Shown here piece after piece: positions 3,517 to 32,913 of a stretch of DNA of 45,196 bases. Within the stretch, counting starts at the first letter, position 1; every line of letters starts with the position of its first letter. The stretch is from a virus, in the IMG/VR virus record IMGVR_UViG_3300048554_000805, positions 1-45,196 of that record, one strand, 5' to 3'. The position numbers and the translations under genes were made by a program. A model generated the notes under the pieces. It did not search any database and had not been told where the DNA came from. It saw nothing but the letters and a program-made list of their open reading frames with translations.

Positions 3517-3953
3517 CAACTGTTACTCAAGTGGAAAATGGGGTTTTGCTACACTTTGCAACAGAGTGGGGTAGTAGGACAGATATTAATTGGTCTGCGC
3601 AAAATGCTTCATTTGAGACAACAAAGCCAAGGACAGGCTTCACAGATAATGACACTTATTGTGTGCCGGTTTTACAGCAAGCTTCTGCAACTTCTGCAGA
3701 ATTTCCAATAAGTGAAAGTGTAAAAAGATTAACTTACCAATTGAATCTAAACCTTGTAACTAAACCACAAAAGGGAGTGTCTGTAATACAGGGCCATTTA
3801 GAAGAGATTAGAAATATTTTTGAATTAAAGACATTAAAAGTAGGTGATGCAGTTTTGCAATTTGAAATGCTGCAAACTTCTGCAGGTTTCAACTCACCAA
3901 CAGGGGATAGTTTTGAAATTCCTTGTTCTATTTTTTTTGAGACAACCATTTAA
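3513..3953 (+). CDS. Tail terminator protein
   Basis: A 146-residue alpha/beta protein starting in an ATGA overlap. The layout fits DUF4128-like terminators: an N-terminal helix with WGSRTDINW, a strand block with VKRLTYQLNLNLVTKP, a helix LEEIRNIFEL, and C-terminal strands. They cap the tail tube and control its length. The order connector, stopper, gp10-like, terminator, tube protein is the standard siphovirus order and supports the call strongly. Confidence 0.7.
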   Translation: MTTVTQVENGVLLHFATEWGSRTDINWSAQNASFETTKPRTGFTDNDTYCVPVLQQASATSAEFPISESVKRLTYQLNLNLVTKPQKGVSVIQGHLEEIRNIFELKTLKVGDAVLQFEMLQTSAGFNSPTGDSFEIPCSIFFETTI

Positions 3954-11709: not shown

Positions 11710-11726
11710 TTTAACAGTGTGTTAAA
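11710..11726. promoter_or_regulatory. Dispersed palindrome abutting a start codon (perfect)
   Basis: Reads TTTAACA-GTG-TGTTAAA, a perfect 7-3-7 inverted repeat whose final A is the first base of ATG 11726. No Shine-Dalgarno sequence is visible, so the palindrome occupies the place of the ribosome site. Confidence 0.7.
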
Positions 11727-12784
11727 TGTTACTTGCAGAAATAACAGTTGGAGGGGTTGATTATTATGGAAGCCTCAAGGGTCATGCAGGAGATACTTTT
11801 TATGCGCCTTGGGTTAAAAGAATGCCAACCCTTGAGCTAGGGCAGATTGAAGACAGTGGGAAAATTGGGGTTGTCTTTGGGAATATTGTTTTAACAAATG
11901 AGCATTTAAACAATGACCATCCTTTTAACACTGACAACTATGAGTTTTTAGTAAATGACCCTCAGTTATATGACTGCAAATTAAAGTGGGGTGAAGATGC
12001 CTCAGACTATCTTTTTGATGGTCAAATATTTTTGCAGGGGTTGAATGAAAAAGAGTTAACCTTTGCTCTGACTGATAGACAGTATGAGTTAGGCGCAAGG
12101 CCATTTACCTTAACGGAAGCTTTTGTTTTTGTTGAGGGGGTTAACTTTACCTCAGGTGGAACTTTAATTGAGATAACAGCCTTAAATCACAATCTAGCTG
12201 CAGGAACTTTAATAACCTTTGAAAGAATGACCTCCTATGGTCAGAACCTGAGTTATACAGGGGTAGTAGAAGATAATTATTATTATGTCAATGGCGTGAC
12301 TTCAGTTAATAGTTTTACCATCCTAGATAAAGATTTTGTCCCTGTCACAGGTGGGGTAGGTACAACAGGGACATTTATTTCTGATGCTCTCACACATAGA
12401 GTTGGCATTCCTCTCAGAGTGCCGTTTTCTTGGGGAGTGGTAAGGGAACAGACCCCTGTTATTAAAAAGCTAGATGTTGAGGTAGCTAACCCCTCATTAG
12501 CCTTAAATAGCTCAACAGCCCCTTTAACCATTAGAGAAGATGGAGTTGTTATCTTTACAACAGATTCCTCATCAGCAGAGTATTGGAATCATCCCACTAA
12601 TGGGTCAGGGATTGCCCCAACTACTGACACGATAACTCTCAATGCTCAGACAGTGGGGGGAACACTAAGCATTTCGGGAATATCAACAAGGTCAGGGAGT
12701 GAAGTAACCTCCCAAAATCTAGGAGATTTCTTTGCTTATGTAGCCACTCAGCTAGGGCTTACTATTGACAATAGTTTAATATGA
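11726..12784 (+). CDS. Distal tail / baseplate hub protein, N-terminal component
   Basis: A 352-residue beta-rich protein right after the tape measure. Its start (AEITVGGVDYYGSLKG...LGQIEDSGKIGVVFGNIVLTN) resembles the distal-tail ring of siphovirus tips. Residues about 135-215 form an inserted Gly/Thr-rich domain. The C-terminal part ends DFFAYVATQLGLTI, which in other phages continues in the same chain as hub sequence. Here it stops and the next gene begins by ATGA overlap, so the hub may be built from three polypeptides. The role is inferred from position and fold pattern. Confidence 0.6.
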   Translation: MLLAEITVGGVDYYGSLKGHAGDTFYAPWVKRMPTLELGQIEDSGKIGVVFGNIVLTNEHLNNDHPFNTDNYEFLVNDPQLYDCKLKWGEDASDYLFDGQIFLQGLNEKELTFALTDRQYELGARPFTLTEAFVFVEGVNFTSGGTLIEITALNHNLAAGTLITFERMTSYGQNLSYTGVVEDNYYYVNGVTSVNSFTILDKDFVPVTGGVGTTGTFISDALTHRVGIPLRVPFSWGVVREQTPVIKKLDVEVANPSLALNSSTAPLTIREDGVVIFTTDSSSAEYWNHPTNGSGIAPTTDTITLNAQTVGGTLSISGISTRSGSEVTSQNLGDFFAYVATQLGLTIDNSLI

Positions 12785-22079: not shown

Positions 22080-23213
22080 TTACTCCCCAACCAATTCCAT
22101 TGCATCTTTAGTTTCTAACTGTGTGTTATTGAAATAAATCATAGTTGTTTCAATCTTTTTGTGTCCTAAGATTTTTTGAACATCTACTAAGGGAACGCCT
22201 TTTGTTAAAAGCTCAGTCGCTAAAGTGTACCTGAACCCATGTGTTGGAGATGGATCTTGTAAGATGCCTAGCTCTTTATTTATCTTTTTAAAGGTGCGTG
22301 TGATTGGGTCAAGTTCAGACCAAAAAGGGCTCACCCCTTCAGATTTTAAAAAGTGTCCTTCAGCTTGTCTTTGTAAGCTCATCAAATATTGATACAAAAC
22401 AGAACCAATCTGAACCACTCTTTCTTCTCCCCCTTTCACTTGCTGATTTTCTGTTTCTTTAATTGTGATTGTTTTTTCAATCAGATTGATCTGCTCCCAT
22501 TTCAAATGCACAAGCTCACCCCCTCTTGCCCCTGTGTATCTCGCTAGCATAAAAAAACGGAATACAAGAGCCCACCTTTTTTGATACCTCCCACCTTCTT
22601 TAATTTTTCGGGAAATATAGGATTCAATCTTTTTGCAGTCTTCAACAGAATAAATGGTTGGGTTTTTCTTTGTGTATTTCAGACGTTTAATTTTTGGGCG
22701 TTTCAAGATAATGCCTTGTTCAACAAGCCAATTCAGCCATGTCCCTAATTGGATCAGATAGCTGTTGATTGTAATGGGCCTGAGTTGCTTGGCTTTCAGA
22801 AATGCTGTAAATTTACTAATTAGATCAATATTGAGGTCAATAGCTTCTTGATCCCCAAACATCTCCACAAATGGGCAGAGAGATGCTTTGAGGTGGATGA
22901 TGGAATTTTTGGAGAGGAGAGGGGTCTGAATCTTCAGATAAATTTGGAAGACTTGGCGGATTGATTTGGTGGGAGGTTGGGCAACAGCTTTTTCTTTGGT
23001 TTCAAGCTCTTTCAGTTTTTTCAACCAAAGCTGTTCTAGGAGAATATCCTTTTCTAAAAGCGAACGGGCTACTCTCCCCCTTTGTGTTGTTTTTACAATA
23101 AGGTCAGACTCATTAATCAAGAAATGGCGAACCCTCCCATTTTCAGAATCAAAGATGCCATAATAATATTTCCTATCTGCTCTGTAGCCAATTTTCTTGC
23201 GACTTCTTCCCAC
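22080..23213 (-). CDS. int: Tyrosine recombinase, phage integrase
   Basis: A 377-residue site-specific recombinase starting at GTG 23213, overlapping the TAG stop of the upstream gene by one base. An N-terminal beta arm-binding part (residues 1-60) is followed by a SAM-like core-binding domain (about 78-165) and the catalytic domain. Catalytic residues visible: Arg in YTGARGGELVHLKW, His and Arg in THGFRYTLATELL, His in ILGHKKIETT, and Tyr in MIYFN. Length is normal. It should recombine the tRNA-Pro core at 21954 with the host copy, using the arm repeats beside it. Confidence 0.95.
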   Translation of the reverse strand: MGRSRKKIGYRADRKYYYGIFDSENGRVRHFLINESDLIVKTTQRGRVARSLLEKDILLEQLWLKKLKELETKEKAVAQPPTKSIRQVFQIYLKIQTPLLSKNSIIHLKASLCPFVEMFGDQEAIDLNIDLISKFTAFLKAKQLRPITINSYLIQLGTWLNWLVEQGIILKRPKIKRLKYTKKNPTIYSVEDCKKIESYISRKIKEGGRYQKRWALVFRFFMLARYTGARGGELVHLKWEQINLIEKTITIKETENQQVKGGEERVVQIGSVLYQYLMSLQRQAEGHFLKSEGVSPFWSELDPITRTFKKINKELGILQDPSPTHGFRYTLATELLTKGVPLVDVQKILGHKKIETTMIYFNNTQLETKDAMELVGE

Positions 23214-24207: not shown

Positions 24208-24236
24208 TTGATCTTTAACATAGAGTTAAATATAAT
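24208..24236 (+). promoter_or_regulatory. Early promoter with operator in the spacer
   Basis: -35 TTGATC (24208-24213), then the 17-bp palindrome TTTAACA-TAG-AGTTAAA (24214-24230) filling the spacer exactly, then -10 TATAAT (24231-24236). A protein bound to the palindrome would block RNA polymerase. It should drive the exonuclease-ERF-replication operon starting at 24339. Confidence 0.7.
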
Positions 24237-25960: not shown

Positions 25961-25979
25961 TTTTTATCAGAGGTTTTAA

Positions 25980-27409: not shown

Positions 27410-27751
27410 ATGCCCTTAAAAAACAAAATCAAAGAAACTCAGATTCAAAAGGCAATCATGGAGTTTCTAAGGTTTCAAAAAATCCAATGTTGGAGAATCA
27501 ACACAGTGGGCATTCCCAATGGAGAGGGGGCTTTTCGCTATAACAATGAAATGAGAGGAATGGCGGATATTTGTCTGATTTTTAAGGGGCTGAGTGTTTG
27601 GTTTGAAGTCAAAACGGCAACAGGCAAACAGACACCCCATCAAAAAGAATTCCAAAGACAGGTTGAATCGGCAGGAGGTTTCTATTTCCTTGTTAGGTCT
27701 GTGGATGATGCGATTTCAGCCATTAATCAACTAAAAATTCAGAGAGGCTAA
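27410..27751 (+). CDS. VRR-NUC domain nuclease
   Basis: A 113-residue stand-alone VRR-NUC nuclease, a small PD-(D/E)xK fold thought to cut branched DNA such as Holliday junctions. Motifs visible: ETQIQKAIMEFLR, the loop INTVGIPNGEG, GMADICLI (metal-binding Asp), WFEVKTATGKQTPHQKEF (Glu-x-Lys and Gln). Full length for phage members. Its stop overlaps the next start (TAATG). It would resolve intermediates from the exonuclease/ERF system. Confidence 0.9.
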   Translation: MPLKNKIKETQIQKAIMEFLRFQKIQCWRINTVGIPNGEGAFRYNNEMRGMADICLIFKGLSVWFEVKTATGKQTPHQKEFQRQVESAGGFYFLVRSVDDAISAINQLKIQRG

Positions 27752-28896
27752 TGAAAATTTGTGTAATTTGTGGTTTTGCCTATGTCCCTTCAAAAATTAA
27801 AAGCAATGCAAACAGGCAGTTAGTGTGCGGTGAAATGTGCAAGGGGCTTTTGCAGAAGCAACGGTACAAGGAATCAAGAAAAGGAAGTTATGATTTAGGG
27901 AATTGTAAAAATTGCGGAACCTCCTTTGTGACAACAAGGGAATTAAAAGTTTATTGTTCCCCAAATTGTAAGGAAGAGTTTTTAAAGCCCAAAGTAGAAT
28001 GTTTAAGTTGTGGGGGTAAATTTAGAAGATCCCAAAAATTTATGTATTACTGCTCTGCGAAATGCCAAGAAAATTCGCATTTATGGGCAAAGCTGAACCG
28101 TAAGAAAAAAATCGGGTCAATAACTCAATGTTTAAATTGCCAAAAAGAATATGAAGTGACCAATAACTGTCAAAAACACTGCTCATCAGCCTGTCAACAG
28201 CAGTTTTCAAGGAGAAAAAGGGGGATTACTTTAACTCAAGAAATAGGTCAAAGAAATTGTAAAACCTGTGAAAATCTATTTATTCCGCAAAATTTCAACA
28301 GTTTATATTGCTCAGAACCCTGTAAAAAAACTGCTCAGGCAAAACACAGAAAAAAGAATTATGAGAAATTTCACGCAAAAAGATTAGCTGCAAGAGCCGC
28401 AAAACCTAAGGTTGAGGTTGTTTGTGGCTTCCATGAGTGCAATGTAAAATTCATCCCCAAAAATAGGGAACACCGTTTTTGCTGCTCTAAGCATTTAAAG
28501 GACCATTACAGAGCCTGTGCGGAAACAAAATTGATTGAAAGAGAGAAAAAACCTCTTCCCAACTGTGGAGACTGTGGGGTTAAACTCAAATCTCATTTTA
28601 AAAAGTTTTGTGATAAATGCTTTTCAGCTAGGAGAAAGAAACTTAAAAAAGGCTATGTTCCTGAGGTTGAGGTTGAAAGCTGTTTTGATGCTGATACAGG
28701 GGATTTTTACAGAAGTCCTTGGGCTATCATTGGGGATAGATGCAAGCTTGATAGAACCCCCACAGAGTTGAACCCTGAGGATTCAGAGTTTTCAGAACAG
28801 ATTGAAGCCTTCTTAAAGAAGGGGGGTAAAATTAAAAAGCTTCCTGTGGGTTTCTGTTCAGCGCCCATTATGATTCATGGCTCAGGAGTAAAGTAA
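27751..28896 (+). CDS. Protein with seven tandem Cys-rich zinc modules
   Basis: A 381-residue very basic protein. Seven modules of the type CxxC-x(15-20)-CxxxC occupy residues about 3-290: CVIC...CGEMC, CKNC...CSPNC, CLSC...CSAKC, CLNC...CSSAC, CKTC...CSEPC, CGFHEC...CCSKH and CGDC...CDKC. Between modules 5 and 6 lies a Lys/Ala-rich helix. The end contains EAFLKKGGKIKKLP, a segment often seen at the end of phage DNA-binding regulators. Each module looks like a small treble-clef or FCS-type finger. DNA or RNA binding is likely; I know no described protein with exactly this array. Confidence 0.7.
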   Translation: MKICVICGFAYVPSKIKSNANRQLVCGEMCKGLLQKQRYKESRKGSYDLGNCKNCGTSFVTTRELKVYCSPNCKEEFLKPKVECLSCGGKFRRSQKFMYYCSAKCQENSHLWAKLNRKKKIGSITQCLNCQKEYEVTNNCQKHCSSACQQQFSRRKRGITLTQEIGQRNCKTCENLFIPQNFNSLYCSEPCKKTAQAKHRKKNYEKFHAKRLAARAAKPKVEVVCGFHECNVKFIPKNREHRFCCSKHLKDHYRACAETKLIEREKKPLPNCGDCGVKLKSHFKKFCDKCFSARRKKLKKGYVPEVEVESCFDADTGDFYRSPWAIIGDRCKLDRTPTELNPEDSEFSEQIEAFLKKGGKIKKLPVGFCSAPIMIHGSGVK

Positions 28897-28968: not shown

Positions 28969-29098
28969 TAATTTTTATGGGGGATTGATTGGATAAACCT
29001 CTATCCACAGAGAGAAAAAATCGGCTCATCTCTGTAAGAATCAAGTAAGTGATATGGGTAAAAAAGACGCTATACCCTAAACTCCCCCATAGAAATTA
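28969..29098 (+). ncRNA. Candidate structured RNA with 16-bp closing stem
   Basis: P1 pairs 28969-28984 with 29083-29098 over 16 bp, with one G-U wobble at 28975/29092. That wobble becomes an A-C mismatch on the other strand, favouring a plus-strand RNA. Inside, P2 TTGATT (28985-28990) pairs with AATCAA (29039-29044) and encloses two hairpins: GGATA/TATCC (28991-29006) and ACAGAGA/TCTCTGT (29007-29035). P3 GGGTA/TACCC (29056-29077) follows. All pairings nest. No known class recognised. It could be a 3' element of the zinc-protein mRNA or an independent RNA. Confidence 0.55.
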
Positions 29099-29105
29099 AA
29101 TTATT

Positions 29106-29122
29106 TTTAATAAGGCGTTAAA
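29106..29122. promoter_or_regulatory. Dispersed palindrome upstream of the 29131 promoter
   Basis: Reads TTTAATA-AGG-CGTTAAA, eight bases before the -35 element. Confidence 0.5.
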
Positions 29123-29130
29123 AAAAAGTG

Positions 29131-29160
29131 TTGACATTAAATCTCATGTTAACATATTAT
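29131..29160 (+). promoter_or_regulatory. Promoter with operator-like spacer
   Basis: -35 TTGACA (29131-29136), 18-bp spacer, -10 TATTAT (29155-29160). The spacer begins, directly after the -35 box, with TTAAATC-TCA-TGTTAAC, whose right half is a perfect dispersed-palindrome half. Start of transcription near 29167 gives a 46-nt leader for the gene at 29213. Confidence 0.7.
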
Positions 29161-29212
29161 AGGTTCACACGCTGAGTGAGTCAGCAAAAACAAACCCCAA
29201 CGAGGAAACAAA

Positions 29213-29389
29213 ATGAGAACGACAAAAGACATGAACACACAAGCAGACATTGCACTTCAGATCATGAATCACACAAAGAGCGGGCTTTCTTCAACAGAAG
29301 CTTGGGAGGCGATCTTTGGAGAAGGGAGTCAGGAGTTGATGAAATCTTGGGACATGAAAAAAGTTTGCAAGAAATTCAGAAGCCTCTGA
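29213..29389 (+). CDS. 58-residue protein under the 29131 promoter
   Basis: ATG 29213 has the ribosome site GAGGAA at 29203. The product reads MNTQADIALQIMNHTKSG then STEAWEAIFGEGSQELMKSWDMKK and ends with a basic FRSL. It is predicted as three helices, a plausible small DNA-binding or antirepressor fold, though no motif is certain. This frame is preferred to the overlapping 74-residue frame at 29176, whose composition is unlike protein. It is followed directly by a terminator, so the transcript is short and abundant-looking. Confidence 0.65.
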   Translation: MRTTKDMNTQADIALQIMNHTKSGLSSTEAWEAIFGEGSQELMKSWDMKKVCKKFRSL

Positions 29390-29399
29390 GGGGTGAATA

Positions 29400-29428
29400 A
29401 GAGGCATCAAGTTGGTGTCTCTTTTTAA
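29400..29428 (+). terminator. Rho-independent terminator
   Basis: AGAGGCATCA, loop AGT, TGGTGTCTCT, then TTTTTAATT. Ten-bp stem including two G-U pairs. It closes the 29213 transcription unit. Confidence 0.75.
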
Positions 29429-29429
29429 T

Positions 29430-29690
29430 TCCTTAGATACCCCAAGCCACTTCCCTCAGGGATTTACGGGGTGACAATTGAGACTCAGCACTGACCTGAA
29501 AAGGTAAGTAGAGAACGAAGACTTGAACGAGTGCTGTTTAGAAAGACTTCCTCACTGAGAAAATCAGGGGGTAGCGATAAAAAGAAGTGTCATGGATGAT
29601 ATTAGCTTTTTTGCATTGCGTAAGTCACAGCCGAATGGCTGTAGAGATCAACTCAATAAAGAGTTTGTCTCCTAAGCCATTTAACTTTTT
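29430..29690 (+). ncRNA. Candidate structured non-coding region
   Basis: A 313-bp gap between genes (29390-29702). Beyond the terminator it has ACCCC/GGGGT (29439-29472) enclosing TCCC/GGGA; CAGCACT (29486-29492) pairing with AGTGCTG (29530-29536) and enclosing ACCT-GAAA-AGGT, a GNRA tetraloop hairpin; ACAGCC-GAAT-GGCTGT (29627-29642); and AACTC/GAGTT inside GAGA/TCTC (29644-29671). A 27-residue frame from ATG 29592 overlaps the last two hairpins and is an alternative explanation. Class unknown. Confidence 0.4.
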
Positions 29691-29702
29691 GAGGTATTTA
29701 AA

Positions 29703-31146: not shown

Positions 31147-31171
31147 GGGGGGCTTTGCTCCCCTTTATTTT
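31147..31171 (+). terminator. Rho-independent terminator
   Basis: GGGGGGC-TTT-GCTCCCC (one G-U pair) followed by TTTATTTT. Eight bases after the H1-like gene. A sister hairpin with loop TCT occurs at 32528. Confidence 0.75.
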
Positions 31172-31442: not shown

Positions 31443-31486
31443 AAGAACTACTGAAGCACTCAATTCCGAGTGTTTCAATGAGTAAC
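31443..31486 (+). promoter_or_regulatory. Leader hairpin element, copy 1
   Basis: AGAACTACT, stem GAAGCACTC, loop AATTCC, stem GAGTGTTTC, then AATGAGTAAC. Twenty bases before ATG 31506. The flanks are identical to the copy at 32870 while both strands of the stem have changed together. AATGAGTAAC contains ATG AGT AAC, opening a five-codon frame that ends at the ribosome site. Confidence 0.65.
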
Positions 31487-31505
31487 TCTAATTGAGGAAT
31501 TGAAA

Positions 31506-32803: not shown

Positions 32804-32861
32804 GTAAGCAAAACTATTTACCGGTAAGCAAAACTATTTACCGGTAAGTAAAACTATTTAC
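32804..32861 (+). repeat. Three tandem 20-bp iterons
   Basis: GTAAGCAAAACTATTTAC at 32804, the same at 32824, and GTAAGTAAAACTATTTAC at 32844, each followed by CG or TG, so the period is exactly 20 bp. Each unit is itself an imperfect inverted repeat (CGGTAA...TTACCG around the middle copy). The block is non-coding and lies just before the second leader hairpin. Confidence 0.85.
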
Positions 32862-32869
32862 TGTTTTTG

Positions 32870-32913
32870 GAGAACTACTGAAAGGCTCAATGCAGAGCCT
32901 TTCAATGAGTAAC
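32870..32913 (+). promoter_or_regulatory. Leader hairpin element, copy 2
   Basis: AGAACTACT, stem GAAAGGCTC, loop AATGCA, stem GAGCCTTTC, then AATGAGTAAC. Perfect 9-bp stem. Seventeen bases before ATG 32930. See copy at 31443. Confidence 0.65.

Follow-up and report, generated by a model that had tools for sequence, protein, structure and literature searches.

In phage HK022, the put RNA causes factor-independent read-through of terminators via the zinc-binding domain of the RNA polymerase β′ subunit. In the c4 RNA of phages P1 and P7, one loop complements a Shine-Dalgarno region of the phage, and the lambda sib element consists of a simple hairpin that RNase III cleaves. HK022 put measures ~70 nt, comprises two stem-loops near the early promoters, and antiterminates without a dedicated protein (PMC9378689); the c4 antisense RNA family is listed as RF01695 (PMC2864571). 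Catalog coverage of structured phage RNAs beyond the model coliphages is poor.

The element described here, at positions 28969-29098, lies in a 45,196-nucleotide window (positions 1 to 45,196 of IMG/VR virus record IMGVR_UViG_3300048554_000805) with the gene content of a temperate tailed phage. Compared by architecture rather than by sequence, the predicted RNA resembles HK022 putL and putR as a phage early-operon RNA with compact stem-loops 5′ of terminators, but differs in being 130 nt long, multi-branched, and located mid-operon, with five helices that include a closing helix. As in c4, one of its loops may pair with a Shine-Dalgarno sequence of the phage, with complementarity that is near chance; unlike c4, it is not in an immunity region and gives no match to the RF01695 model at E up to 10. 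As with lambda sib, a structured element follows an early phage gene on its 3′ side, but the body here is multi-branched and its joints are conserved. The element is thus neither a c4 member, as judged by the model, nor a put, as judged by architecture, and might act like either.

The rightward early genes encode, in order, a YqaJ exonuclease, an ERF annealing protein, a replication initiator, an endonuclease, and a 381-aa zinc-knuckle protein, and the element occupies the intercistronic gap of this early operon 3′ of the last gene (Table 1). A promoter-like sequence, a 58-aa ORF, and a terminator-like hairpin follow. Beyond the hairpin lie a conserved non-coding stretch and then genes for a DUF932 protein, an SSB-like protein (a label that rests on reading the sequence, without a family match), and others.

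Table 1 Coordinates of the helices of the element and of neighboring features in the window.
Feature	Position	Strand	Remark
Integrase	22080-23213	leftward	gene content
Repressor-like gene		leftward	assigned by reading the sequence, without a family match
AGAGGTTT, 5′ of the replication-initiator ATG (25980)	25969-25976	+	complement of AAACCTCT in P3 (antisense reading)
381-aa zinc-knuckle protein, repeated CxxC motifs	27751-28896	+	partial PHROG match to HNH endonuclease
P1 closing stem, 16 bp	28969-28984/29083-29098	+	one U-G; inner 10 bp conserved
P2 inner stem, 6 bp, enclosing P3 and P4	28985-28990/29039-29044	+	compensatory changes in relative
P3 hairpin, 5 bp, GGATA-AACCTC-TATCC	28991-29006 (arms 28991-28995/29002-29006)	+	loop identical in relative
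P4 hairpin, 6-7 bp	29007-29035 (arms 29007-29013/29029-29035)	+	loop varies in sequence and length
Unpaired joint GTAAGTGATAY	29045-29055	+	conserved in relative
P5 hairpin GGGTA...TACCC, 5 bp	29056-29077 (arms 29056-29060/29073-29077)	+	loop mostly conserved
Promoter-like TTGACA-18-TATTAT	29131-29160	+	both hexamers identical in relative
58-aa ORF	29213-29389	+	97% identical in relative
Intrinsic-terminator-like hairpin	29399-29423	+	also present in relative

Folding and comparison together indicate that 28969-29098 is very probably a real, conserved RNA. The initial annotation had proposed a 16-bp stem, an inner 6-bp stem, and three nested hairpins here; all of these helices exist in the window, and all 39 pairs are standard. 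It had also named equally stable shuffled controls in advance as a possible refutation, and the plus strand reaches -41.0 kcal/mol, whereas dinucleotide shuffles give -23.5 ± 3.5 kcal/mol (z -5.0), with 0 of 200 shuffles as low. The proposed structure (-39.6 kcal/mol) is not the MFE structure, from which P2 is missing; because the pair probability of P2 is also only ~0.2, single-sequence folding could not establish this helix. It is predicted in the related phage described below with a pair probability of ~0.6-0.8 and becomes a consensus helix when that sequence is added (RNAalifold), so that the proposed inner stem is backed by the comparison and not by the window sequence folded by itself. 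Strong local folding is not unique to the element within the window: a coarse 130-nt scan returned other sites with z -4 to -5, some of them within genes, although its 65-nt steps placed no tile exactly over 28969-29098. The strongest local fold in that scan (z -5.1) lies on the plus strand at 12026-12156, inside the ORF at 11726-12784.

One relative was found, the phage contig NZFK01000029.1 (IMGVR 2778261618; 48,397 bases) from the MAG “Rickettsiales bacterium MED721”, and the same contig was reached by four protein queries and one RNA pattern. Scans with the zinc-knuckle, 341-aa, YqaJ, and DUF932 proteins returned this relative and no others, as did searches of IMG/VR for the conserved joint with both exact and gapped patterns. 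A further 24 gapped pattern matches there were attributed to chance, the best unrelated covariance-model match scoring 20 bits (E 0.03). Among GTDB genomes of the relative’s class and phylum (74 species), only the MAG itself was recovered, and collections of phage and plasmid DNA gave no relevant match. The phylum assigned to the MAG, with 74 species in the genome set searched, is too small for Pseudomonadota, and the Rickettsiales title or the binning may therefore mislead as to the host.

In the relative, the RNA occupies the corresponding place in the genome, directly 3′ of the stop codon of the 381-aa homolog; the gap between stop codon and RNA is a few nucleotides there and 72 nt in the window. 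The order of zinc-knuckle gene, RNA, promoter, 58-aa ORF, and terminator is common to both phages. The two RNAs are 74% identical (32 of 124 aligned letters differ), and the relative’s RNA folds at z -3.0. Their RNAalifold consensus contains 31 pairs, five of which are changed on both sides while none is broken; covariation in homologs, the other point on which the initial annotation had staked its proposal, is thus seen in the one relative. Two compensatory pairs fall in the conserved core of P1 (A-U to G-C and G-C to A-U; columns 9/122 and 14/117), two in P2 (A-U to G-C and U-A to C-G; TTGATT/AATCAA in the window, TTGG-C/GCCAA in the relative), and one in P3 (U-A to A-U). P4 and P5 show no covariation because their arms are invariant, except for one broken outer P4 pair. 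The full 16-bp closing helix is present in the window, but its outer third is unconserved: the relative has lost pairing at columns 4-6, and the conserved closing helix is therefore 10 bp.

When the 32 substitutions were placed at random, at least five compensated pairs arose in 647 of 200,000 trials (0.3%), and at least five with no more broken pairs in 75 of 200,000 (0.04%), in tests that are lenient because the structure was partly chosen with both sequences in view. Sliding the helices along the alignment abolished the pairing, leaving 36-56% of cells paired versus 100% for the consensus with a pseudoknot. This 4-bp pseudoknot, between AGUG of the joint (29048-29051) and CRCU (29068-29071), fits both sequences with one U-A/U-G change and is a suggestion only for a possible extra helix. 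Conservation extends to unpaired positions, with 6 of 6 kept in the P3 loop and 10 of 11 in the joint at 29045-29055, whereas the P4 loop diverges in sequence and length. Retention of the P3 loop and of GUAAGUGAUAY while the P4 loop changes would suggest a specific contact, with protein or RNA, over a plain stem, but two sequences make only a weak case for such a binding partner.

Because the minus strand folds almost equally well (z -4.2, again with no shuffle as low), we considered a DNA-level role as a cruciform or as a site of replication or recombination bordering an exchanged module, and a block of 94-98% identity does start immediately at the element’s 3′ end. We regard this reading as highly improbable. 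The single imperfect pair, correctly picked out in the initial annotation, is a U-G in P1 that is conserved at columns 7/124; it suits a plus-strand RNA, as the other strand would present A-C. There is also no skew switch near the element and no iteron within it, and an origin with iterons is likewise unsupported. The adjoining block itself, at 29099-29702, is the most conserved stretch among the compared parts of the two phages (~94-98% DNA identity versus 66-87% elsewhere). It contains the promoter, the 58-aa ORF, the terminator, and ~270 nt of non-coding sequence that end just before the next ORF and fold at z -2.8. The block may represent another structured RNA or a module exchanged recently.

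As the initial annotation had anticipated, the element is unlike known riboswitches and phage RNAs: Rfam 15 gave no match above threshold anywhere in the window and, with E relaxed to 10, none that is credible or overlaps 28969-29098. ARAGORN reported no tRNA or tmRNA at 28969-29098, leaving a tRNA identity unsupported, and a coding region was considered and is also unsupported. The fold appears to be under selection in a phage RNA without a known family. The window yielded no second copy, and the two-level-junction RNA has so far been seen in only two marine-type temperate phages; two homologs do not suffice to define a family. It is conceivable, if rather doubtful, that they represent a new family of phage RNAs that combine a two-level junction with a pseudoknot and control an early-to-middle switch by direct action on the machinery of transcription or translation.

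We infer that 28969-29098 is a plus-strand structured RNA within the early, replication-operon transcript. No promoter directly upstream of it is common to both phages, and the few nucleotides between stop codon and RNA in the relative make it most simply part of that transcript. The early promoter candidate lies at 24208, ~4.7 kb before the RNA, and the only terminator-like site on the plus strand between them is intragenic. An intrinsic terminator at the element itself is unsupported: the structure is not terminator-shaped, no U-tract follows directly after the P1 stem, and the terminator scan reported nothing at 28969-29098. The hairpin at 29399-29423 is the first intergenic terminator 3′ of 24208; the next in the window is at 31147.

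The position just 3′ of the 381-aa gene stop, together with the long closing helix, would suit a cis-acting 3′-end or processing element (an RNase III site or exonuclease barrier in the manner of lambda sib), which would determine how long the upstream early mRNA persists and divide that mRNA from the 58-aa module. The outer helix is unconserved, however, and a simple barrier would not require conserved single-stranded joints, so that we consider this explanation unlikely. Multiple branches, conserved joints, and a possible pseudoknot could also belong to a riboswitch-like leader that senses a ligand or protein for the downstream genes. With a strong promoter between the RNA and the next ORF, the RNA would be absent from that promoter’s transcript, which argues against a sensor; an expression platform is not recognizable and none of the Rfam riboswitches matches, and this reading is the less probable of the two.

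In both phages the RNA stands ahead of the first clear intergenic terminator of the early transcript, with the internal promoter in between, an order that suits passage of early transcripts and termination of internal ones. We tentatively favor, as a possibility, a put-like antiterminator acting as nascent RNA. RNA polymerase from the early promoter would transcribe 28969-29098, and folding of the nascent RNA would give a compact body, P1/P2(P3,P4)/P5, whose joints are conserved. The folded RNA could then alter the polymerase such that it reads through the intrinsic terminator ~300 nt downstream and continues into the SSB/DUF932 half of the operon, whereas transcripts from the internal promoter (29131), which lack the RNA, would terminate after the 58-aa ORF. 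Set against this proposal are the count of only two homologs, with invariant pairing in P4 and P5; the length and promoter-proximal position of HK022 put, compared with 130 nt and ~4.7 kb here; and the single copy in the window. A protein antiterminator could equally handle the early terminators, and no terminator of the 31147 type was detected in the relative. A compensated fold ahead of a promoter and a terminator is a candidate for RNA control of the lytic program in uncultured marine bacteria, and the element is at present an orphan with candidate functions only.

The main rival to the put-like mechanism is a trans-acting antisense role resembling c4 of P1/P7, in which the P3 hairpin (AAACCUCU) would pair with the Shine-Dalgarno region of the replication initiator (AGAGGUUU) and limit initiator translation as early transcripts accumulate. 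A perfect complement occurs at the same gene in both phages, 8 nt in the window and 11 nt in the relative, and the initiator ranks third among gene starts in the window and first in the relative. Only 24 of 905 GC-matched conserved 12-mers (2.7%) do as well, while among all conserved 12-mers from the two genomes 5.8% match the complementarity of the P3 loop to the initiator. CCUC is, however, the anti-Shine-Dalgarno core, and 15 of the 29 conserved CCUC-containing 12-mers elsewhere (52%) do as well. Other start regions score similarly, the P3 loop is one of several and was examined after the fact, and the RNA has no promoter or terminator of its own that could be seen. The complementarity appears barely above chance, and we judge the antisense role improbable.

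In both phages, the plus-strand promoter is overlapped by a promoter-like sequence on the minus strand (CTGACT-17-TATAAT, 29184-29156), from which transcription would run antisense across the RNA; the 10 of 12 matches of this sequence are possibly due to chance. Further along, a leader hairpin of the form GAACTACTGAA-[stem]-TTCAATGAGTAAC occurs at 31444-31490 and 32870-32913 in the window and at positions 1780-1828 and 3562-3611 of the compared piece of the relative, in both phages just 5′ of the DUF932 gene and of a 75-aa ORF. Its stem arms covary (CACTC/GAGTG and GGCTC/GAGCC), and it looks like a regulatory element common to the two genes. An operator- or iteron-like array at 32804-32861 consists of three 20-bp units (GTAAGCAAAACTATTTACCG) in tandem, and every unit is an imperfect inverted repeat.
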